Shown here piece by piece: positions 5,379 through 21,280 of a stretch of 24,256 nt of DNA. The DNA comes from a virus. The notes beneath the pieces were generated by a model. That model made no database searches, was not told where the DNA came from, and saw only the letters and a list, made by a program, of their open reading frames with translations. The translations under genes were made by a program, and so were the position numbers. The DNA lies in the IMG/VR virus record IMGVR_UViG_3300024323_000020, positions 1 through 24,256 of that record. One strand, 5' to 3'. Positions within the stretch are counted from its first letter, which is position 1; the number at the start of each line of letters is the position of its first letter.

Positions 5379-6311
5379 CTATGGATACCAAGTCGATTCC
5401 CACGTCGCCTGCGACTGGACCGTGAAGCCGAGGCCGGTGATGTAGGATGTCCGCGATGATAGCGCACTCGGGACGTAGGCGTACCACGTCGATCCGGATT
5501 TGACGGCCGGAATCTGGTATATGCGATTGCACCACGCCCTCACATTGGCGTCTGTTTGCCCCCAAAATTCCTCCCACAGCCCGAAACCAACGTCGTAGGA
5601 AGTCTTCTTCTCGCTGATCCGAACCATGGTCGCGTTGGTAATCCCGAGGTTGATCAGGTCCTTGAGGTTGAGGTGGTTGCCGGAAGAGTCGGCGAAATAG
5701 ACACCGTTCGTCACATCCCAAAGCCGCCATGCGCCCGATGATTTCTCCTCGAAAACGATGTGGCCGATATCGTTGTTGGTTGGAACGATGCCCTCCGTCA
5801 TCTGGACTAGCCGGGCCGGGATTGCCGGAGCGAACTGGCTCATCATCGTGCGCATGAGATCGGCGATGTAGCCGCAGTGCATCTCTACCGGGCGCGTCTT
5901 CAGCGCATTCAAATACGCTGTCAGGTCAGCGCTTCCGAGCGGGATTGACGTTCCATCATCGTACTTTCCGTCCAAGTGACAGGCTGAAAAAGCAGAGATA
6001 TACGCTGGGATGTTGGTCGCGTCCCAAGTTATCCGCTGCATGATCACTTCGGTTACGGGATCAGCAAACAGATAGCGGCCGAGCGCCGTGAGGTCGTATC
6101 CTACGCCGTTGTAGACATAGAGCCCAGGAACGACGTGGAAGGTGGAAGGAAGCGCGAGGGTTGCCGATGGGGCAAGCGGGATCGAGGTGTAGCCCGTCCC
6201 AAGAGCCAGATAAAATCGTGTGTCCATTTTTTTCCTGTTTGGTTCAGCATAAATTATGGTCGGGTAAAACAAGGACGCAATTGAAGCGACGAGTGATCTT
6301 CGCGTGATCAC
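5379..6311 (-). CDS. transglutaminase-like cysteine hydrolase/transferase with putative signal peptide
   Basis: Residues 145-150 (HCGYIA) place Cys146 at the head of a helix. PARLVQM follows at 165-171, then His184 in GHIVFEE and Asp199 in WRLWDV. The spacing of 38 and 15 residues matches the Cys-His-Asp core of the transglutaminase-like superfamily (papain-like fold), which cleaves or crosslinks amide bonds. The start is a GTG overlapping the fibre gene stop as GTGA. It gives an N-terminus with TRRSLVAS, a hydrophobic core and IYA-E, like a signal peptide, possibly Tat-type. An internal ATG at 6227, preceded by AGGAAAAAA, could yield a form without it. Virion or periplasmic action is inferred; the substrate is unknown. 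Confidence 0.68.
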   Translation of the reverse strand: MITRRSLVASIASLFYPTIIYAEPNRKKMDTRFYLALGTGYTSIPLAPSATLALPSTFHVVPGLYVYNGVGYDLTALGRYLFADPVTEVIMQRITWDATNIPAYISAFSACHLDGKYDDGTSIPLGSADLTAYLNALKTRPVEMHCGYIADLMRTMMSQFAPAIPARLVQMTEGIVPTNNDIGHIVFEEKSSGAWRLWDVTNGVYFADSSGNHLNLKDLINLGITNATMVRISEKKTSYDVGFGLWEEFWGQTDANVRAWCNRIYQIPAVKSGSTWYAYVPSALSSRTSYITGLGFTVQSQATWESTWYP

Positions 6312-7366
6312 GCGGTTCTTCCCCGCGTATCAATCCATCCGGTGGTGGATATCGTGAACGTATCAGATGCGCCCGATGCGCTGGCGCGTGACCTGATCTG
6401 AGCGGACGCATTGGTGAGCGTTCTGAATTGCCCGCCCGCGGTGAACGAAGTGATTCCGGTACCACCAGCTTGTGCTGAGTACGAAAAGATTGATGATGAT
6501 GGGGTTTGGTCCGTTAACGACAAGGGGGACATCAGAACAAAATGGTTGGAGGTGACGGCCTGATCAGCAACGCTGTAAATTGCTTCGACCACGACGCCCG
6601 TTGGGACCGTCAATGTTCTGGTAACTGCCGCTGTGCCGGGATTGGTGGCAGCTACATCCTGAATCGGAACGTCCCACAGAAACGTATCGCTGCTTTGCTG
6701 GAATAGCGTCCATTGGGACGATCCGTTGGTCTTCATCGATCCAATGCGCCGGAACAGCGTGTAATTCGTCGGCATGGTTGGCGACGTCGCCGAAAGCGAC
6801 ACCAACACATCGGTCACGCCGGTATCGAGGCGCTTGATGATGTGAGTGTGATACCATGTGCTGGCGGCGATCGAGCCGGTGTCAAGGCCGCCGTTTCCGG
6901 TCCCAACCGCCCACGCGCTCGTTGTCTTGGCCACAGCCGCATAAAGCCGAAGGATGTTGACGGCGGTGCTGTCCGCAGCCCATCCGGTCGCCACTGAGAA
7001 CGTGGTGCTAGCGCCGGCCGTCGAGAGAGTCAGCCCGAACAGCTGCCCGTCGACCGGATCGAGATCCTCTCCATAGGCCACGATCGCGACTTGCGGCGCC
7101 GCGGTGAAGCTGATCTTGGCCGTAGTTCCGGCAGAGTTGAATAGTACCGTCGTCCGCGCCAGCGTGGTCCCGGCCACGGTATAGGCGCCATAGCCGCACT
7201 CCCATTGCGTCAGGTCCGCGCTTTCGGCCCGGTATTTGTAGATCGCGGCGTTAACGGCCTGGGCGCTGGCCGGGGTCTGATACCCCAGCACAGCCGCGGA
7301 AACGACAAAATCGCCCGTCCCGCTTGATGCTGCGGTGAACCGGCAGACATCGGCGAAAGAGGCCAT
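6308..7366 (-). CDS. phage fibre-like structural protein
   Basis: The 352-residue protein is rich in Thr, Ser, Ala and Gly. Its N-terminal domain carries features common in phage fibre and head-fibre proteins: a FADVCRFTAASSGTGDF start, a Y-to-WE-x-G-x-G-x-Y turn (QWECGYGAYT) near 55-62, then LARTTVLFNSAGTTAKISF. The remainder is beta-rich with no enzymatic motif. It starts directly at the end of the preceding structural gene and overlaps the transglutaminase-like gene as GTGA. It may be a head fibre or small adsorption appendage, because it sits inside the head module rather than with tail genes. Exact location on the virion is not known. Confidence 0.65.
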   Translation of the reverse strand: MASFADVCRFTAASSGTGDFVVSAAVLGYQTPASAQAVNAAIYKYRAESADLTQWECGYGAYTVAGTTLARTTVLFNSAGTTAKISFTAAPQVAIVAYGEDLDPVDGQLFGLTLSTAGASTTFSVATGWAADSTAVNILRLYAAVAKTTSAWAVGTGNGGLDTGSIAASTWYHTHIIKRLDTGVTDVLVSLSATSPTMPTNYTLFRRIGSMKTNGSSQWTLFQQSSDTFLWDVPIQDVAATNPGTAAVTRTLTVPTGVVVEAIYSVADQAVTSNHFVLMSPLSLTDQTPSSSIFSYSAQAGGTGITSFTAGGQFRTLTNASAQIRSRASASGASDTFTISTTGWIDTRGRTA

Positions 7367-7882
7367 TTACAGCACTTCGTAGAAGATATTCGCGCCGATC
7401 GCGCCGGCCGTGCCGACGTTGGCCGAGGACAGGACAGTTTCGGAGTTCGAGGTCGTCGCCACGCCGACGGACACCCATTCTTCCTCGGATCCCGGGTTGG
7501 TCTGCCACTGGATGATACCGCCGAAGGCGTTGAACGTCAGGTTGAGCCGGGCAATCGAGACGGCAGGCGACCGATTTGGCGGGGTCGAGGCCGCCACCAT
7601 GGCCACCGGAGCCGTGGATACCGCAGTCGCTGCGATGTTGACCGGGGCGTCGGAGTTCGGCAGGGCCAACGCCGTCGGCGTGATCGCCAGCGCGGACGAT
7701 CGCGCCAGGCAGGTTGCGGTGACCGCGCTCGAGCTGGCCTGTCCCATCAGCAAGACCTTGCCGATCTTGAGGATATCGGTCGCCGAGCCTGCCTTGAGAG
7801 CCGCGAACGTGCCGGCGGACAGCACGCCATCGGCCTGCGCGGTCGGGGTGAAGGTGGAGACCTGGAAGATGCGCTTGGACAT
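7367..7882 (-). CDS. hypothetical virion structural protein
   Basis: The 171-residue protein is low in charge and rich in Ala, Thr, Ser and Val. The C-terminal half shows beta-strands, with a WQTNPGSEEEWVSVG segment, and no catalytic motif. Its composition matches the neighbouring fibre-like protein. The stop lies immediately before the fibre-like gene's start, and the start has a GGAAAACCC ribosome site 4-9 bases upstream. Position between portal and fibre genes supports a head or connector surface role. I do not recognise a named family. Confidence 0.62.
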   Translation of the reverse strand: MSKRIFQVSTFTPTAQADGVLSAGTFAALKAGSATDILKIGKVLLMGQASSSAVTATCLARSSALAITPTALALPNSDAPVNIAATAVSTAPVAMVAASTPPNRSPAVSIARLNLTFNAFGGIIQWQTNPGSEEEWVSVGVATTSNSETVLSSANVGTAGAIGANIFYEVL

Positions 7883-7894
7883 GGGTTTTCCTTC

Positions 7895-8116
7895 TCAGCT
7901 TCGGGGCGCGCCGTCAGGCAGACGGGTAACGGCGACATTGACCCACATGGCGTTGCTACGGTGAGCGCGCATGATGAATGTCTTGTCCGGGCCTTCCGGA
8001 AGTAGTTCGTCGAGCGCCTTGGCGTAGGACGCCGCAGCAGATCGAAGCTTGGCCATGGTGGTGATCTGGTCTTCAGTCGGCTTGAGATATTCAAACGTCG
8101 ATTCATGAAGCGGCAT
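7895..8116 (-). CDS. Acb2/Tad1-like hairpin protein, putative signal-nucleotide sponge
   Basis: The 73-residue protein is almost wholly helical. Residues about 13-59 follow the pattern of small phage proteins annotated with the Acb2/Tad1 hairpin domain: a first helix (MAKLRSAAASYAKALDEL), a tight turn with PEGPDK, and a second helix ending in AMWVNVAVTR, then a short polar tail. Characterised relatives bind cyclic di- or trinucleotides and glycocyclic ADP-ribose and so blunt CBASS and Thoeris defence. I recognise the pattern by eye; ligand-contact residues were not checked. It sits between a zinc protein and virion genes, so expression would be late unless it has its own promoter. A small structural helper is the alternative. 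Confidence 0.55.
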   Translation of the reverse strand: MPLHESTFEYLKPTEDQITTMAKLRSAAASYAKALDELLPEGPDKTFIMRAHRSNAMWVNVAVTRLPDGAPRS

Positions 8117-8127
8117 TTTTTGTTCCT

Positions 8128-8451
8128 TTACGGGATCAGCAATGAGCCCTGCTTGAGAAGGTTATCCACCACTTTCTTGTATGGCGTATGGATGTAGCCC
8201 GCCTGGTTTGCCTCAAACGCGCAGCCGTCACAAATGTAATGCCCCGCGCACTTCGCGCAGTAATGCCGGTCACGGGTCCTGAATGGATTCTTGACCACAT
8301 GCGCATCGCAATGACTGCAGTGCAGCGTCTCCGTCTCGTAAACCTTGCCCTCGCGGCAGAACAGCGGGTCATAGCCGGCCCAGCGCGCCACATCCTCGGG
8401 CAGACCCGGGGAGGCGCGGTGGTCGATGACAAGCTCGCCCATCTGTTTCAT
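8128..8451 (-). CDS. zinc-binding conserved phage protein
   Basis: The 107-residue protein starts MKQMGELVIDHRASPGLPED, an N-terminus I recognise from uncharacterised phage proteins near portal genes. It then has CSHC, CAKC and CDGC pairs plus nearby histidines, enough for two zinc sites of treble-clef or ribbon type. The C-terminus is helical (KKVVDNLLKQG). The ATG overlaps the preceding small gene as ATGA; an in-frame ATG nine bases later is possible. The role is unknown. Zinc knuckles near the portal suggest a nucleic-acid or assembly contact, which is inference only. Confidence 0.75.
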   Translation of the reverse strand: MKQMGELVIDHRASPGLPEDVARWAGYDPLFCREGKVYETETLHCSHCDAHVVKNPFRTRDRHYCAKCAGHYICDGCAFEANQAGYIHTPYKKVVDNLLKQGSLLIP

Positions 8452-8618
8452 GCGCGGATTTCTCTCAAAATTAGTTCGTTCCTTCTGAAGTTCTCATCAA
8501 TCAGGCGCTGTCTTTCAGTGCATATTGCACTCAGCCTTACCCAGCGCACTCCATCATATATTTCTGCCCGGAGTGGTCCGATGAGCCATTTTCTGCGATA
8601 TCTCACACTCAAAATCAT
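8448..8618 (-). CDS. small basic hypothetical protein (56 aa)
   Basis: A 56-residue frame with an ATG overlapping the portal stop as ATGA and a TGA overlapping the zinc-protein ATG as ATGA. It fills exactly the otherwise empty space between two solid genes. The product is basic, with a strand-rich first half (SVRYRRKWLIGPLRAEIYDG) and a charged helix at the end (RQRLIDENFRRNELILREIR). No family is recognised. Double coupling is the evidence for translation; function is unknown. Confidence 0.6.
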   Translation of the reverse strand: MILSVRYRRKWLIGPLRAEIYDGVRWVRLSAICTERQRLIDENFRRNELILREIRA

Positions 8619-10984
8619 TCGTTGAACTCCGTCGTGATGTGCGAGGCCTTGCCGTCCGGACCGCGGTGGATGACCTTGGGCGCCGCGTTCCGCCGCGATG
8701 CGATATCAAACACCTTGGCCGCCTCGGCGATCTGGTGCAACGCCATGTGGGGGTGGATGCCGTCCGAATCGGTGCCGCCGCCCTCGCCCTCCTTGGGCGT
8801 CGAGGCTTCGATCCGCTTGGAGTGGAATTCAAGCTTCTTGATCTCGAACTCGATCTCTTTCATGCGGAGGTCGATCTTCTTGCTTTCCAGATCGATCGTC
8901 GCGTTGCGCTCCTCGCCCTGATTCTCGATCTCCTGCCGGCGGATTTCGCTCTGTGCCTTCATGCGCTCCGTCTCGGCCTTGATCATCTCCGGGTCTGGCT
9001 TCTGCTGCGGATTGGCGGCCTTCGCCTTGGCATCCTGCTCGGCCTTGTCGCAGAACTCCTCAATGGCCGATTCCAGATCACGGCCAACCCGGAAGCCACG
9101 GACGCCAAAGCCCAGCATCTTGGCCGCCAAGGGCGCGAACTCCGGCACCATGGCTGTCACCTGGGCCGCAGTCTCGATGAACTTCGTGGTCGCGGTCAGA
9201 AATTCGATGCGCTGCGCTTTCTCCTGCTCGGCATCGCCCTGCACGGTCGAATCAGTCTCGATGTCGATCCGGAAGCCGCGCAGCTTGTCCTGCCGCAGTA
9301 GCGCGATCGCTTCCATGATCATGGCCAGCTTGCGTTGCTGGGCCATGTTGGGTGATTCGACCCCCACGGGCGCCGGAGCGGGGGCAGGAGGCCCGTTCGG
9401 TGTCTGTGGGGGGATCGGCGCCGGGGATGTCGGCGCTGACTGCATGGGCAGCTGCCCCATGGGCGGCACTGCCGCTTGCGGGTTCATCGGCGGGCCGCCG
9501 TTGTGACCCATCATCGGGTTTGGGGGAGGTGACGCTGGAGGATCAAGCCCCTCATCGTACAGCGCGCCCGACACCTCGATCAGCGTCTCCGGGCTGTAAT
9601 GCTCCGCGATGATCTCGCCCATGATGCAGATCACATCACGGCAGTACCGCGCCATCGCATCCTGACGCTCCTGCACCCGGGTCGAAGAATTGTTGCTCTT
9701 CAGCCGCTGGCCGCCCATGGTCTCCCGGGCGTCGGACGTGCCGCGCATGATGTCGGAAATACCCGTGGTGCGGTCGAGGTCTTCAATGATCTTGGCCCGG
9801 ACCTCGATCAGGATCTGCAGCGTCTTGGAAATTGCCTCGATCGGCACCCAGTCAATCGCGCCCTTCAGCCCGCCCTTCTCGGCGAACATGGCCCACGAAT
9901 CGACCGGGATCAGGTTCGGCTCGGCCGCTTCCTCAAACACCCGCTTGAGCGACTGCGCCGCGCTGTCATAGACACCAACGACTTTGGTCGAGGCCGTCAG
10001 GATGTCGATGCGCTTGGTGAGCTCGTCGATCTGGATGTACTGGTCCTGGCTCTCCGCATAGTCCGGCACCGGGATCATGGTGTCGTTGGTCATGGTGGCC
10101 GAGAGCGGCTCGGGGCATGGGAAGAACCCCTGCAGCTTCAAGGGGTCGTCGACCTCCTTGCAGATCTTGTCGTAGCTCTTGGCGATGAAATAAACGCACC
10201 GGCCCGGCTTCCACCAGATTTCGTGCACGGTGGCCTGCATGCCCTCCTGGCCGGATAGCTGGCTGTCGCCCTTCTGGTCGCCCTCGGTCTTCGGCTTGTG
10301 GTCGAGTTCGATCTCTTTCCCGATCTTTTCCCCAAAATTCTCAATCAGGTCTTCACGGGACAGGAACAGCCGGCGGCCCACACCCTCGACCTCGGTCCAT
10401 GTCCTGGCACCGGCCGGGAAGGTAAGGAAGTCCTCCCAATGCACGTAATCTACAGCCAGGTTCTCACTTGCCAGCTCCTCGGTGTCGGCCTGCTCCTCCT
10501 CTTTTGCATCCTCGCCCGTCTCGGTGACATCATCCTCGGCGGTCTGCTCCGGGCTGACCGAGCGCTCGAACTTCGGCGCATAGCGAATCCAGCACTGGCC
10601 ACGCCCGGGGATCAGGTAGTCATTACGCGCCCGGCGCATGGTGGCGTCAAAGCCGCACATCGCGACCTCATACCGCAATGCACGCTCGAGGATGGTGGCC
10701 GCCACCCGGCCGGTCGGGTCCTTGTCGAGGAACCGCCGTTCGCTGATCGGGACTGGCGTCTTGGAATAGATGACCGGCTTCAGGGTTTCGACATTGGACC
10801 AGAACAGGTTGAGCCGCTTGGCAGCCCCCTTGCTGCTGTCGTCCTCCTCGTTCCTGTCATCCCGGTAGTTGCGGCATATCTTCTTGGCCCTCTTGTGCCA
10901 CTTGCTATTGGCCTTCTCGCACTGCTCGATCTGGGTTTTCCAGTGAGCCGCCATCTCCTGTTCGGGCTGGAGCGCGATGGTCAT
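8615..10984 (-). CDS. portal protein (P22-like, large)
   Basis: The 789-residue product forms the dodecameric ring at the head vertex through which DNA is packaged and ejected. The N-terminal stem/clip part (1-450) includes FWSNVETLKPVIYSK, DYLIPGRGQCWIRY and a long DQYIQIDELTKRIDILT helix, as in the roughly 700-residue P22/podovirus portals. Residues 481-540 form a proline-rich linker containing GHNGGPP. FRIDIETDSTVQGDAEQEK at about 571-589 is a hallmark of this portal class. Residues 650-725 are a charged coiled coil, perhaps the barrel. It follows terminase and a structural gene, and both ends are ATGA-coupled. The linker and long charged tail look longer than usual. Confidence 0.88.
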   Translation of the reverse strand: MTIALQPEQEMAAHWKTQIEQCEKANSKWHKRAKKICRNYRDDRNEEDDSSKGAAKRLNLFWSNVETLKPVIYSKTPVPISERRFLDKDPTGRVAATILERALRYEVAMCGFDATMRRARNDYLIPGRGQCWIRYAPKFERSVSPEQTAEDDVTETGEDAKEEEQADTEELASENLAVDYVHWEDFLTFPAGARTWTEVEGVGRRLFLSREDLIENFGEKIGKEIELDHKPKTEGDQKGDSQLSGQEGMQATVHEIWWKPGRCVYFIAKSYDKICKEVDDPLKLQGFFPCPEPLSATMTNDTMIPVPDYAESQDQYIQIDELTKRIDILTASTKVVGVYDSAAQSLKRVFEEAAEPNLIPVDSWAMFAEKGGLKGAIDWVPIEAISKTLQILIEVRAKIIEDLDRTTGISDIMRGTSDARETMGGQRLKSNNSSTRVQERQDAMARYCRDVICIMGEIIAEHYSPETLIEVSGALYDEGLDPPASPPPNPMMGHNGGPPMNPQAAVPPMGQLPMQSAPTSPAPIPPQTPNGPPAPAPAPVGVESPNMAQQRKLAMIMEAIALLRQDKLRGFRIDIETDSTVQGDAEQEKAQRIEFLTATTKFIETAAQVTAMVPEFAPLAAKMLGFGVRGFRVGRDLESAIEEFCDKAEQDAKAKAANPQQKPDPEMIKAETERMKAQSEIRRQEIENQGEERNATIDLESKKIDLRMKEIEFEIKKLEFHSKRIEASTPKEGEGGGTDSDGIHPHMALHQIAEAAKVFDIASRRNAAPKVIHRGPDGKASHITTEFNE

Positions 10985-11310
10985 ACGCTAAACGACCCCA
11001 TCGCGATCACTGAGATATTCGCCCCGGTCGTGACCTTCCATGGCCCGGAGGTGCTGAACAGGTTCAGCGGCACATAGAACGGTGCCAGCGAGGGAAGCGC
11101 CGTGGTTGCGCCTCCGGCATAGATCGGGATCGAGGTCGAGCCGTCCAGCAGCGTCACAACCCCGCCAGCGGCGGTCGCCGCCGTGATAAGCAGGCCTGCG
11201 ATGAAGTCCCCCGTGGCCCCGTTCGTACCGAGCACCTGGGCCGTCTGGCTAGCCGCAACCGTCTCGTACATCGCGTTGACGGTCATCATGGGATTGCGAA
11301 CGCCTGTCAT
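10981..11310 (-). CDS. conserved phage structural protein
   Basis: The 109-residue product is Ala/Thr/Gly-rich with beta-strand character (LLITAATAAGGVVTLLDGS and a WKVTTGANISVIAMGSF end). The start at 11310 is chosen because its ATG overlaps the terminase stop as TGATG; upstream in-frame codons would intrude into the terminase gene. It overlaps the portal start as ATGA. No enzymatic motif is seen. Small proteins between terminase and portal in related phages are usually uncharacterised, and a connector or head-surface role is possible. Confidence 0.65.
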   Translation of the reverse strand: MTGVRNPMMTVNAMYETVAASQTAQVLGTNGATGDFIAGLLITAATAAGGVVTLLDGSTSIPIYAGGATTALPSLAPFYVPLNLFSTSGPWKVTTGANISVIAMGSFSV

Positions 11311-12815
11311 CAGACCCTCTCGTTCTTCCGCTGCCGGCTCTGCGCGGCCCACAAATCATCAAGCGTGACCTGATTCCCAGCCCCGACCAGCAGCAGCTTT
11401 TGAGCCGGTTTCGGCACAAACTGTTTTATATATGGCCTTGACATGCACGCATAGCGAATTTCGTCCGGGGCATGGTCTTCGCTCTCGGTGTCCACATCCT
11501 CGGGCTTGTTGGTATCATGCTGCAGCGCCGGCAGCGTCCTTATCGAGTCGCGGCAGGTGCTAAAGAAGTAGATCCCGGGCCGCTCTCCGTCTCCGTTGAG
11601 GCGCGCACGTACTTGATCCCATCCACCCATAGCGCCACGGGCAGACACCCGGGCGTTATCAGCTCGTCGAAAAAATACTCCGCGCGTAGCCATCCGCTCC
11701 GCGATCGAAGGACCGCCATCGCTCGCAAAGGCTGCGGGGTCGAGGACACCGTAAGTGATTGCTGGATTACCCTCGATGTCCTTCGGCTCATCACGCTCCC
11801 TTTCCTTGATGCCGTCGGCTACGTCTTCGGCGGGGAGCTTGAGGCCGACGTTGGGGGCACTGGCGCCGTACCATTCTCGATAGCGGACGAGACTTCCTCG
11901 GGGTATCTGTCGTAAATCTCCAGTGCCGCACGTAATTGTGTCTCCCGCGACCGCCCACCAACCAATCGAAAAAGGCTTCGCAGATCCCCAATCACCGCTG
12001 CGAAACCGCGTCCAGTTCGCGGGGATTTGGAATGGTGCAATGACATGCTTTGCCTCCGAAAATTCAGGGAAGAACGCCCCCTCGATCACTGACCAGTCGC
12101 CCTCAAGCCAGGCCCGTACCAGCTGCGCGTTGCCCACCATCTGCAGGTTCGCCACGTACTCGGCGCCCAGATAGCGGTTGTCCTGCAGCTTGGAGGGGAT
12201 GAACACCCGCTCCCGCTTCACGCTCTCCTTGGTCCACGGGTTCTCGTACGTCTCGGTGATGGTCCGCCAACCAAGCGGTGCAGGATCGATATAGCGAGCG
12301 CGCACCCACTGATGGCCAGGTCCGCCGGGATTCCCGGTGGCCCTAAACCCACACGGAATGCCATGACCGCTCCTAAGTGTGGCCATAAGCTTGAAAACAG
12401 GGCCAGGCGAAGGAAACGTGCCGATCTCCTCGATATAGACCCTTGTGTGTGATCGCCCCTGGTAGGCGTCCGCATCACTGTCATGATCGAGATACGCGAA
12501 CTGAAACCGTGACCCATTGGGGAACCGCCAGAACTTCTCCTGCTCATGGTAGCTCGCCCCAAGCTGCCTGAACAGCTGCCGGCTGCGCTCGATCGTGTCG
12601 ACCAGCTGCGTCCGCTCGCGGCGGAACATGATCCCGTTGCAGTGCTCGCCGTACTGGTCCTGATGGCTGACCCATTCGCCCAACATGCCGTCAGTCTTGC
12701 CGCCGCCTCGAGCACCCCCAAAGAACACCTCGAAGATCGGGCAGGCCAGCAGGGCCTCCTGTGGGCCTGGCTGCGGTCCCCAGATTACGTCGTAGACTTG
12801 GCTGGGCTTAGCCAT
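11310..12815 (-). CDS. terL: terminase large subunit
   Basis: The DNA-packaging motor and genome-cutting nuclease. With the ATG at 12815 the protein is 501 residues. Residues 33-41 (GGARGGGKT) are the Walker A loop, 125-130 (RVYIEE) the Walker B with catalytic glutamate, and the ATPase coupling region follows with FRATGNPGG. The C-terminal RNase H-like nuclease begins around FRSGDWGSAKP, which supplies the first metal-binding aspartate; a second acidic site is likely in YGVLDPAAF. The longer frame to 12887 would read through the preceding small gene in an Arg/Ser/Trp-rich stretch, so it was rejected. It lies downstream of a likely small subunit and before portal. Confidence 0.93.
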   Translation of the reverse strand: MAKPSQVYDVIWGPQPGPQEALLACPIFEVFFGGARGGGKTDGMLGEWVSHQDQYGEHCNGIMFRRERTQLVDTIERSRQLFRQLGASYHEQEKFWRFPNGSRFQFAYLDHDSDADAYQGRSHTRVYIEEIGTFPSPGPVFKLMATLRSGHGIPCGFRATGNPGGPGHQWVRARYIDPAPLGWRTITETYENPWTKESVKRERVFIPSKLQDNRYLGAEYVANLQMVGNAQLVRAWLEGDWSVIEGAFFPEFSEAKHVIAPFQIPANWTRFRSGDWGSAKPFSIGWWAVAGDTITCGTGDLRQIPRGSLVRYREWYGASAPNVGLKLPAEDVADGIKERERDEPKDIEGNPAITYGVLDPAAFASDGGPSIAERMATRGVFFRRADNARVSARGAMGGWDQVRARLNGDGERPGIYFFSTCRDSIRTLPALQHDTNKPEDVDTESEDHAPDEIRYACMSRPYIKQFVPKPAQKLLLVGAGNQVTLDDLWAAQSRQRKNERV

Positions 12816-12951
12816 CCACGACCAAGCCCATCGCCAAGAAGATCGTGACCCAGCCCTCGACCTCGACATCAGACATCGGCACGACATAGCCCGGCGTCTC
12901 AGTCGGCCTGCGGATCGCGCGCAGCAAGTTGCGGAGCTCGTCCGTGGTCAC
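12808..12951 (-). CDS. small hypothetical protein (47 aa) before terminase
   Basis: The frame begins with GTG overlapping the preceding stop as GTGA and ends in TAA eight bases into the terminase start, so it is coupled at both ends. The product begins VTTDELRNLLRAIRRP and ends in a hydrophobic helix (EGWVTIFLAMGLVVDG). It could form a helical hairpin with the last helix buried, or insert weakly in a membrane. No family is recognised. Its place among terminase genes suggests a packaging accessory role, but that is only positional. Confidence 0.55.
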   Translation of the reverse strand: MTTDELRNLLRAIRRPTETPGYVVPMSDVEVEGWVTIFLAMGLVVDG

Positions 12952-15607: not shown

Positions 15608-15639
15608 AAGACCCTTGTCATTCATTTGGCAAGGGTCTT
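15608..15639. terminator. 12-bp hairpin over the end of the DnaA-like gene
   Basis: The arms AAGACCCTTGTC and GGCAAGGGTCTT pair over 12 positions (one T-G wobble) around an 8-base loop. The stem covers the stop of the DnaA-like gene and the ATG at 15621. No T-run follows on the minus strand; on the plus strand it is followed by a loosely T-rich stretch. It could act as a weak terminator, processing site or translation brake. Confidence 0.35.
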
Positions 15640-16166
15640 TCAATTTGAGCCCGTAGCGCGGCCACCTGTACGGCGAAATCCGGGTCCGCGGCCATCAGGG
15701 CTTTCACCTTCCAGATCGCGTGGTAGGCGGTCGAATGGTCTCTGTCGCCAAACCTGCGGCCTATCTCGGAAATGGATTTCCCTGTGGTTTCAGAGGCTAG
15801 GTACATTCCGACCTGGCGAGCCCTGACGAATTGCACGAACCGCCTATCCGAGAGCAGGTTGACCATGGTCACGTTTCCCCAAGCGCAGACCAGCTTTTGG
15901 ATGTTCCTGATCTCATTGGCGCGAAAAACAGGGTTATCCACAGGTTGTGGAGGTATTTTGGTCTCCGGAATGACCGGATAGACCAGAATCTCGCGCAGAT
16001 TGGCTTTGACCTTCGGAGGCGCCGGCGCCAGTTCCCGCTGGGAGGCCGAGGGGCATTTCACCCCCGTATCGACCTTGGCCTTGGCAGCAATGCTCAATTT
16101 AAGGGCATGGTGGCGGGCCTGGATCTCAGAGAGGCTGCGGTTCTCAAGCTCGGTCCATGCTGTCAT
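15618..16166 (-). CDS. DnaA domain-IV-like DNA-binding protein
   Basis: The 182-residue product ends (about 112-156) in the helix-turn-helix of the DnaA C-terminal domain: VQFVRARQVGMYLASETTGK, SISEIGRRFG, then GDRDHSTAYHAI, close to the DnaA signature G-x-RDHST. That domain binds DnaA boxes at origins. No Walker A or AAA+ part exists; the first 100 residues are Pro/Lys-rich and probably disordered. The ATG at 16166 has GAAGGA six bases upstream, so it is preferred to the TTG at 16172. It may direct phage replication or interfere with host DnaA. The domain is firm; the role is inference. Confidence 0.8.
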   Translation of the reverse strand: MTAWTELENRSLSEIQARHHALKLSIAAKAKVDTGVKCPSASQRELAPAPPKVKANLREILVYPVIPETKIPPQPVDNPVFRANEIRNIQKLVCAWGNVTMVNLLSDRRFVQFVRARQVGMYLASETTGKSISEIGRRFGDRDHSTAYHAIWKVKALMAADPDFAVQVAALRAQIERPLPNE

Positions 16167-16349
16167 TTGCAATCCTTCGTCGTATCCATACGATCCTGCA
16201 TTGCACAGGTATTTTTGGCAGCCTCTGAAAATTCCTTTTGAAGGTCCGCCTTCGATATGCGATTTTTCAGAGATGCCTCAAGCGATCGCCTCCACGGAGG
16301 CCAAACGGGTCAAGGGCCGAACCGATACCCGCGTGAATTCCCGTCTCAT
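16163..16349 (-). pseudogene. small gene split by an apparent frameshift
   Basis: The ATG at 16349 overlaps the RusA-like stop as ATGA, and a coding-like frame ends at 16163 overlapping the DnaA-like ATG the same way. They are in different frames. The first part stops at 16278 after 23 codons; the second (RSLEASLKNRISKADLQKEF, then SEAAKNTCAMQDRMDTTK) has no usual start codon. A single indel near 16280-16300 would join them into one protein of about 61 residues. Decay, programmed frameshift or sequence error are all possible. Confidence 0.4.
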
Positions 16350-19646: not shown

Positions 19647-19756
19647 AATTCACAGCCACGATCGCCCCGCCTCTCGCCGCCGCACTCGCCGGAACGCTGT
19701 TCATGATCGTGGAACACTATTACGTGGCTCCGTTGCTCGCAAGGTGGTTCGAATGA
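19643..19756 (+). CDS. very small membrane protein (37 aa)
   Basis: Both ends are ATGA overlaps, which supports translation. The product is 37 residues with a hydrophobic core (TIAPPLAAALAGTLFMIVEH) and aromatic residues at its C-terminal edge (HYYVAPLLARWFE), as in short membrane-spanning peptides. It follows another small membrane protein and may work with it. No family recognised. Confidence 0.55.
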   Translation: MKFTATIAPPLAAALAGTLFMIVEHYYVAPLLARWFE

Positions 19757-20340
19757 ACGAGAGCGATCTTCACAGGGCCATTGAGGCCGCCAAGAGCCTA
19801 CGCTTGGAGATCGCGCGCATGTGCTGCGGCGACGAGCAGTTGCTCGCCGACACGTTCGAGGGTGAGACCACGCTTGACGCAGAAATCCGCGCCGCGGTGC
19901 TCCTGATCGAGGAGGACGAGATTTTCGTCACCGGCATCAAAGCGCGCGAGGCTGAATTGAAGAATCGGCGGCTGCGGTTCGAGAAGCGCATTGAAGCGAC
20001 GCGCGGGCTGATCGAGCAGGCCTTGACGTTGGCAAACTGGCAGAACCTGGAGATGGACATCGGAACCGTCGTGCTCGGCAAAGCCGCGCCACGGCTGGCG
20101 ATCGACGACGAGAGCGCGATACCGACGCAGTTTTGGAAGCGCAACGATCCGACGCTCGACAAGGCGGGACTAACAAAGGTTCTGCGCGAACGCCAAAAGG
20201 CGTTGGACAATCTCTTTGCAGCCAAGATACCGCCAGAAGCCCGCGCGCTCGAGATCGAGAAATTGAACGCAGAGATGCCGGCTATCCTCGGCGTTCACAT
20301 GGAAACTGACGGCGTAACGCTGACAATTCGAAGGGCCTGA
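19753..20340 (+). CDS. Gp157-like siphovirus protein (recombination module)
   Basis: The 195-residue product has the Gp157 layout: a long helical first half with KAREAELKNRRLRFEKRIEA, a helix EQALTLANWQ, then strands MDIGTVVLGKAAPRLAIDDE and ESAIPTQFWKR, and a final hairpin GVHMETDGVTLTI. Gp157 family members sit beside single-strand annealing proteins in many phages and have been linked to phage resistance in streptococci; the biochemical role is unsettled. The start at 19753 overlaps the previous stop as ATGA. It is immediately upstream of bet. Confidence 0.82.
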   Translation: MNESDLHRAIEAAKSLRLEIARMCCGDEQLLADTFEGETTLDAEIRAAVLLIEEDEIFVTGIKAREAELKNRRLRFEKRIEATRGLIEQALTLANWQNLEMDIGTVVLGKAAPRLAIDDESAIPTQFWKRNDPTLDKAGLTKVLRERQKALDNLFAAKIPPEARALEIEKLNAEMPAILGVHMETDGVTLTIRRA

Positions 20341-20341
20341 C

Positions 20342-21280
20342 ATGAACCAGATTGCACGAATCCAGCCGGCCGGCGTCGCCTCGTGGACCTCGCGCCAGCT
20401 CGACACCATCAAGCGCACGGTCGCCCGCGACACCAACCACGATGAGTTCGACCTTTTCATCGAATACGCGCGATCGAAGCAGCTTGATCCGTTCTCAAAA
20501 CAGATCATCGCCGTTGTCTACTCCAAGGACGACGAGAAGAAGCGCAAGATGACGATCATCGTCACGCAAGACGGCCAGCGCGTCTTAGCGTCCCGGTGCC
20601 GCGATTATCGGCCGTCCGAGACGGAGCCGGAGTTCACATATCAGCCGGATTTCAAGTGCCAGACCAACCCGCTCGGCATCGAGAAGGTAACGGTTACTCT
20701 GTGGAAACAGGACAGCGGCGGTGCCTGGCACCCGGTCAAGGGTTGGGCCTATTGGGATGAGTATGCCCCGATCAAAGAGGAGTGGGCATTCGATCAGGAG
20801 TCCGGCAAGCGCAAGCCGACCGGGAAACTGACCATCGATGCATCGGGAAACTGGGCCAAGATGCCCCGCGTCATGCTGGCCAAGTGCGCCAACATGGTCG
20901 CGCTGCGCGCCGGCTGGCCGGAGACGTTCTCTGGCCTCTATGTGGAGGAGGAGATGGACCGCGCCAAGGCGACCGACCTAACCGCCTCCGAGATGGTTGA
21001 GCACGAGCGCGAGGAACGCCGCATGAAGTCGATCGCCATGTCAGACGATGAATACCCGTTCGTCGACCACGAAGGGACAATGACATTCATCCCGGCTGGC
21101 AGGTACGGCGACCGCGTCATCATGATGGCCCGGAACTGCACGGACCTCGCCGAACTCGACAGCATGAAGACCAGCAACCGGGAAGGCCTGCAGCGGTTCT
21201 GGGCTCGCCACAAGGATGATGCGCTATCGGTCAACGCCGAGCTGGAAAAGCTCCGCAGCGCGCTCGCAAAGGTCGCCTGA
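20342..21280 (+). CDS. bet: Bet-type single-strand DNA annealing protein
   Basis: This 312-residue protein anneals complementary single strands during phage recombination and replication. Near the N-terminus DTIKRTVARDTNHDEFDLF, then AR-SKQLDPFSKQIIAVV, followed by MTIIVTQDGQRVLASR, are the central signatures of the Bet/RecT family. The C-terminal part carries KMPRVMLAKCANMVALR and an acidic end of lower conservation. No lambda-exonuclease partner is seen nearby; the flanking genes are Gp157-like and a shortened HNH-like protein. The start is one base after the Gp157 stop. Assignment is firm. Confidence 0.92.
   Translation: MNQIARIQPAGVASWTSRQLDTIKRTVARDTNHDEFDLFIEYARSKQLDPFSKQIIAVVYSKDDEKKRKMTIIVTQDGQRVLASRCRDYRPSETEPEFTYQPDFKCQTNPLGIEKVTVTLWKQDSGGAWHPVKGWAYWDEYAPIKEEWAFDQESGKRKPTGKLTIDASGNWAKMPRVMLAKCANMVALRAGWPETFSGLYVEEEMDRAKATDLTASEMVEHEREERRMKSIAMSDDEYPFVDHEGTMTFIPAGRYGDRVIMMARNCTDLAELDSMKTSNREGLQRFWARHKDDALSVNAELEKLRSALAKVA

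Follow-up and report, generated by a model that had tools for sequence, protein, structure and literature searches.

A standalone Acb2/Tad1-type hairpin gene among the head genes of an IMG/VR virus: a likely mobile cargo gene

A small gene lying among the packaging and head genes of a virus recorded in IMG/VR encodes a standalone hairpin protein. Pfam, profile–profile comparison, structure prediction and a conserved pocket tyrosine and basic residue all support its assignment to the Acb2/Tad1 hairpin family. Taken as a whole, the observations are probably best explained by a mobile single-gene cargo encoding a minimal sponge of the Acb2 type. On the strength of homology and of the pocket residues, the most likely function of the product would be to sequester a cyclic-nucleotide signal, as Acb2 does. 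The window referred to throughout is the entire stretch of DNA that was analysed, 24,256 nucleotides corresponding to positions 1 to 24,256 of record IMGVR_UViG_3300024323_000020.

Gene and genomic setting

The acb2-like open reading frame starts with ATG, occupies exactly positions 7895–8116 on the minus strand and encodes 73 amino acids, among which the motifs AKLRSAAASYAKALDEL, PEGPDK and AMWVNVAVTR, pointed out in an earlier sequence-only reading of the window, are all present. The term "helix-turn-helix" used in that reading holds in the sense of a helical hairpin and fails in the sense of a DNA-binding motif. The close homologues found in IMG/VR, together with figures indicating purifying selection (both given below), confirm that the frame is a real gene and not a product of chance. 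On its upstream side, an 11-bp gap (8117–8127) containing a Shine–Dalgarno-like AAGGAAC separates it from a minus-strand gene at 8128–8451, whose 107-aa product carries CxxC pairs of zinc-ribbon-like character. This flanking protein is conserved in the lineage and bears a weak likeness to the zinc finger of formamidopyrimidine DNA glycosylase. On the downstream side, a 12-bp gap (7883–7894) with AAGGAA precedes the next gene, which lies on the same strand at 7367–7882 and encodes 171 aa.

The wider surroundings bear out the placement of the gene within a head cluster, namely a minus-strand block that includes the genes for the portal protein (8615–10984; phrog_12082, E 9e-180), the terminase large subunit (11310–12887; phrog_2, E 3.8e-32) and the major head protein (1903–2934; phrog_9953, E 1.2e-112). 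A 56-aa open reading frame (8448–8618, minus strand) overlaps both the portal stop and the start of the following gene. The more specific description of a position between portal and fibre genes is correct on the portal side; the fibre label has no family hit behind it, the product of 6308–7366 having given no informative match in Pfam or PHROG. Elsewhere in the window, a minus-strand gene at 635–1339 encodes a 234-aa protein that matches phrog_28018 (E 1.7e-61), a family of unknown function, and weakly resembles glycosyltransferase family 8.

Family membership and predicted fold

The kinship with the Acb2/Tad1 hairpin family, initially recognized by eye, was recovered by HMM search: PF24729 matches the protein across the whole domain (profile positions 2–58 of 58, E 3.6e-5) with a score of 24.3 bits, which for this protein by itself lies under the curated cut-off of 27 bits. 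The cut-off is exceeded by seven of the nine relatives that were scored one by one, and all 50 aligned relatives match PF24729, with a best E-value of 2.7e-10. A further match is provided by phrog_1454 (E 7e-7). When a profile of the 50 relatives was aligned by hhalign with a profile of 11 known members (drawn from T4 Vs.4, PaP2 p26 and Vibrio, Rhizobium, Paenibacillus, Lactococcus and Mycobacterium phages), the two were joined with 98.2% probability at E 4.5e-14 over 63 columns with 30% identity. Ten of these known members score above the Pfam cut-off; the remaining one, PaP2 p26, is the solved Acb2. Sequence searches of the PDB, whether started from the single protein or from the 50-relative profile, found no Acb2 chain, so that the link had to be made by comparing profiles and folds. 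Neither PADLOC nor NCBIfam matched the protein.

The AlphaFold monomer, predicted with a mean pLDDT of 96.2, contains the paired-helix hairpin that the earlier reading had described: two long antiparallel helices (residues 15–38 and 43–64) joined by a turn and preceded by an N-terminal segment that bears the pocket tyrosine. In a VIA-align comparison with PDB chains, T4 Vs.4 ranks first (Z 6.7), followed by Acb2 8h2x (Z 6.2), an unrelated T7 portal–tail component (Z 6.1) and Acb2 8h2j (Z 5.9), with Tad1 at rank 18 (Z 4.0–4.9); for helical hairpins a Z under 8 is only moderate, unrelated ones score close, and the ranking supports an Acb2 fold in the model, short of proof. Foldseek against the PDB returned weak E-values (1.5 for Vs.4). 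Among BFVD models, 12 of the 13 best matches are named Acb2/Tad1 hairpin, with probabilities of 0.99–1.00.

Distribution and selection

Close homologues were found in IMG/VR at 68 loci in a first scan and at 111 in a second, the copies being 55–81% identical among the matches listed. Across 84,980 species genomes a single locus was detected; the contig that carries it, a 42.6-kb "loop", belongs to a Verrucomicrobia MAG. The best full-length matches in a set of 50,697 phage records are only 25–33% identical, and a megablast comparison of the window with phage records turned up no related sequence. The genomic surroundings of the relatives are unlike those in the window: in 67 of the 68 loci the flanks have no detectable gene in common with it, and in 49 other larger gene-bearing records the window terminase is matched in one and the capsid in three, all weakly. 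According to neighbour lists that are approximate because they derive from a simple ORF caller, replication and recombination genes (Sak4, exonuclease, SSB, polymerase, helicase) accompany the relatives in 26 of the 94 loci considered, whereas 14 loci have terminase, head–tail adaptor or portal genes as neighbours and the others fall in neither class for want of an assignment. From its occurrence, the gene looks like an anti-immunity gene widely traded among unrelated phages.

The gene is under purifying selection, with a median pN of 0.19, pS of 0.78 and dN/dS of 0.17 (pairs with usable dS). Conservation of this strength is unusual and out of character for a gene engaged in an arms race, and it counts against the interpretation as a sponge.

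Pocket residues and ligand

In an alignment of 17 diverse family members, Y10 of the window protein, equivalent to Y8 of T4 Vs.4 and Y11 of PaP2 Acb2, is the sole invariant column, and the position 15 residues further on, R25, is occupied by arginine or lysine in every member. The corresponding residue of PaP2 Acb2, K26, likewise 15 positions after the tyrosine, is the basic residue of the pocket; a search of the accessible literature found no report of Acb2 K26A or Y11A mutants. For the T4 member, mutation of the tyrosine (Y8A) has been reported to disrupt cyclic-dinucleotide binding (PMC12657218). The subfamily to which the window protein belongs has its own signature, in which G42, P43, D44, K45, T46, R50, R53, M57, W58, N60, T64 and R65 are fixed and in which helix 2 reads R-A-H-R-S in the window protein as opposed to T-x-L-E-E or T-K-L-K-E in known members. 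Owing to this divergence of helix 2, the ligand could differ from that of the known members, or binding could have been lost.

The alternative that follows from the signature, namely that the protein has the Acb2/Tad1 fold and serves a purpose other than anti-CBASS activity, by binding a gcADPR-like or undescribed signal or by housekeeping nucleotide binding, is the best placed of the competing explanations and is nevertheless judged unlikely. The replacement of the canonical helix-2 residues by invariant ones (GPDKT, R50, R53, MW, N60 and T64–R65) speaks for it, as do the strong constraint on the gene and the fact that Tad1 and Acb2, within one family, bind different sets of signals (PMC12043709). 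Set against these points, the shared tyrosine is the very residue tied to cyclic-dinucleotide binding in T4, and occurrence as a movable cargo suits counter-defence.

Empty site and mobility

Eighty loci encoding relatives of the window portal were fetched, and a profile search of their six-frame open reading frames showed the acb2-like gene to be absent from all 80. The same profile found no match in the whole records of the portal relatives, a result that says little by itself. Three of the loci (L106, L109 and L125) belong to the lineage of the window, with portals that are 60–72% identical and capsids, where present in the record, that are 91–95% identical. In these three, the counterparts of the genes at 8128 and 7367 (the latter 74–96% identical) abut directly, being separated by 0 to 10 bp in which there is no acb2-like gene; at the empty site of L106, the counterpart of the 12-bp gap is the 10-bp sequence AGGAAATACA. 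The simplest reading is the insertion of a single gene between its two present neighbours, with loss of the gene from the three relatives as a possible alternative. The site documents a single gene that comes and goes. Two phages of the same lineage (loci L120 and L128, listed also as the pair L192 and L193) carry a different PF24729 protein of 65 aa elsewhere in the genome (41 bits in the one that was scored), encoded in L193 at 1486–1683 on the minus strand. This protein is matched only from profile position 9 onwards and apparently represents an independent acquisition.

The empty site bears directly on the proposal that the gene belongs functionally to its operon and encodes a minor protein of head structure or assembly, its hairpin likeness reflecting no more than a common and simple fold. 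Such a role would fit the tight spacing among head genes, helical hairpins are common, and the T7 portal–tail component scores nearly as high as Acb2. The proposal is very improbable: the sequence-profile evidence obtained by hhalign is specific, 26 loci have a relative of the gene in the vicinity of Sak4, exonuclease, SSB and DNA polymerase genes, and phages with portals and capsids as closely related as those above do without it at the same place. Because the gene is missing from phages of the same lineage in which the site is otherwise intact, a structural protein was rejected in favour of a cargo gene.

Position and transcription

The sequence-only reading had regarded a place among head genes as unexpected for a gene of this kind. 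It is not without precedent, given the 14 of 94 relatives near packaging or portal genes and the example of Vibrio phage D96b (OZ196129), in which an Acb2-family gene directly follows the portal gene, two genes before that of the major head protein. The D96b protein is of the PaMx33 type (51.5% identical to PaMx33 Acb2) and the phage is unrelated to that of the window. The D96b gene (L188:1480–1776) is annotated as hypothetical; related genes were found in 117 Vibrio phage records, and the records that match at 99% or above number 97 in all. A further example is Mycobacterium phage MalagasyRose, where the gene for a PF24729 protein of 195 aa (L189:866–1453) immediately precedes those for the two terminase subunits, small and large. 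A literature search, with most subscription papers outside its reach, found no reports of Acb2 in structural gene clusters or metagenomes.

The suggestion that the gene might have its own promoter was not upheld, as a scan gave two sites where 2.1 were expected and none just upstream of the gene. Given the tight spacing and the lack of promoter-like sites above chance, the gene is probably transcribed together with the head genes. The minus-strand block also contains DnaA-like, RusA-like and regulator genes, and the transcript may therefore not be purely late. The product of 15618–16172 (minus strand, 184 aa) contains the C-terminal DNA-binding domain of DnaA (PF08299, E 2e-20) and no other DnaA domain that could be found. 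At 19744–21280, on the plus strand, Gp157-like and RecT-like genes form a recombination module that diverges from the minus-strand head block. That the protein might travel in the virion and act at genome entry, which would account for its location, is an idea with hardly any likelihood, suggested by gene position only and opposed by the presence of the same gene in replication regions of other phages and by a protein that consists of the hairpin and a short leading tail, with no fusion or extra domain.

Proposed function

As a minimal Acb2-type sponge, copies of the protein would assemble into a hexamer like that of Acb2, and pockets formed by Y10 and R25 would capture a defence signal, either a cyclic dinucleotide or trinucleotide or something related, and hold it undegraded. 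Sequestration of the signal would keep a CBASS-like effector from firing. With no evident promoter of its own, the gene would be expressed with the head genes and its product would appear in step with the capsid proteins. Capsid mutations have been found to help acb2-deleted phage escape CBASS (PMC10419184), which makes a sponge co-produced with capsid proteins plausible; the position in a head operon is in keeping with the view that CBASS reacts at about the stage when capsids are produced.

Acb2 has been described as relatively rare and confined to certain phage groups (PMC11722364). The genes considered here form a separate Acb2-type subfamily spread over more than 110 environmental viral contigs, mostly with unrelated packaging and capsid genes. 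Should the product prove to bind a defence signal, many uncultured phages would seem to be under pressure from signalling of this kind, and the fixed helix-2 signature would offer a handle on ligand specificity. A more far-reaching version, which is put forward tentatively and as a whole is rather doubtful, holds that a distinct, unusually conserved and highly mobile GPDKT/HRSNAMW subfamily, common in environmental phages but hardly ever met with in isolated phages or in the sequenced genomes of bacterial species, binds a signal unlike that of the PaMx33 and T4 Acb2 proteins and is made together with capsid proteins.

Comparison with known systems

The earlier naming of the protein as Acb2/Tad1-like is accurate for the hairpin family and does not extend to Tad1 in full. 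The C-terminal hairpin of Tad1 from a Clostridium botulinum prophage (PDB 7uav/8kbf) weakly matches the window protein, at the low Z-scores given above, whereas the N-terminal antiparallel β-sheet domain of Tad1 (PMC12043709) is absent from a protein that comprises a short tail and the hairpin only. Another group of comparable proteins is that of the short Acb2/Tad1 hairpins of Gram-positive phages, namely Paenibacillus phages Pahemo and Tripp, Lactococcus phages 1706 and P1046 and Mycobacterium phage Myrna, for which no functional tests were found. These share with the window protein a short loop, a turn resembling P-x-x-[RD]-x-K and an arginine at the basic site, with 25–32% identity over the domain; several differ in possessing N- or C-terminal extensions, and several have T-x-L-E-x in helix 2. 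Acb2 itself, represented by PaP2 p26, the product of PaMx33 orf24 and T4 Vs.4, is, like the window protein, a standalone hairpin with an N-terminal segment. Several differences exist between the two: the window protein is shorter (73 aa compared with 88–93), lacks the long insert between the helices of Acb2, carries arginine rather than lysine at the basic site and RAHRSNAMW rather than TKLKEASMW in helix 2, and is only 16–24% identical overall. In common they have the conserved tyrosine (Y11 or Y8 in Acb2, Y10 here) with a basic residue 15 positions later, an MW-like motif and A-[IV] at the end of helix 2, features shared with a protein that, as a hexamer, takes cyclic dinucleotides and trinucleotides out of circulation and leaves them uncleaved (PMC12043709).
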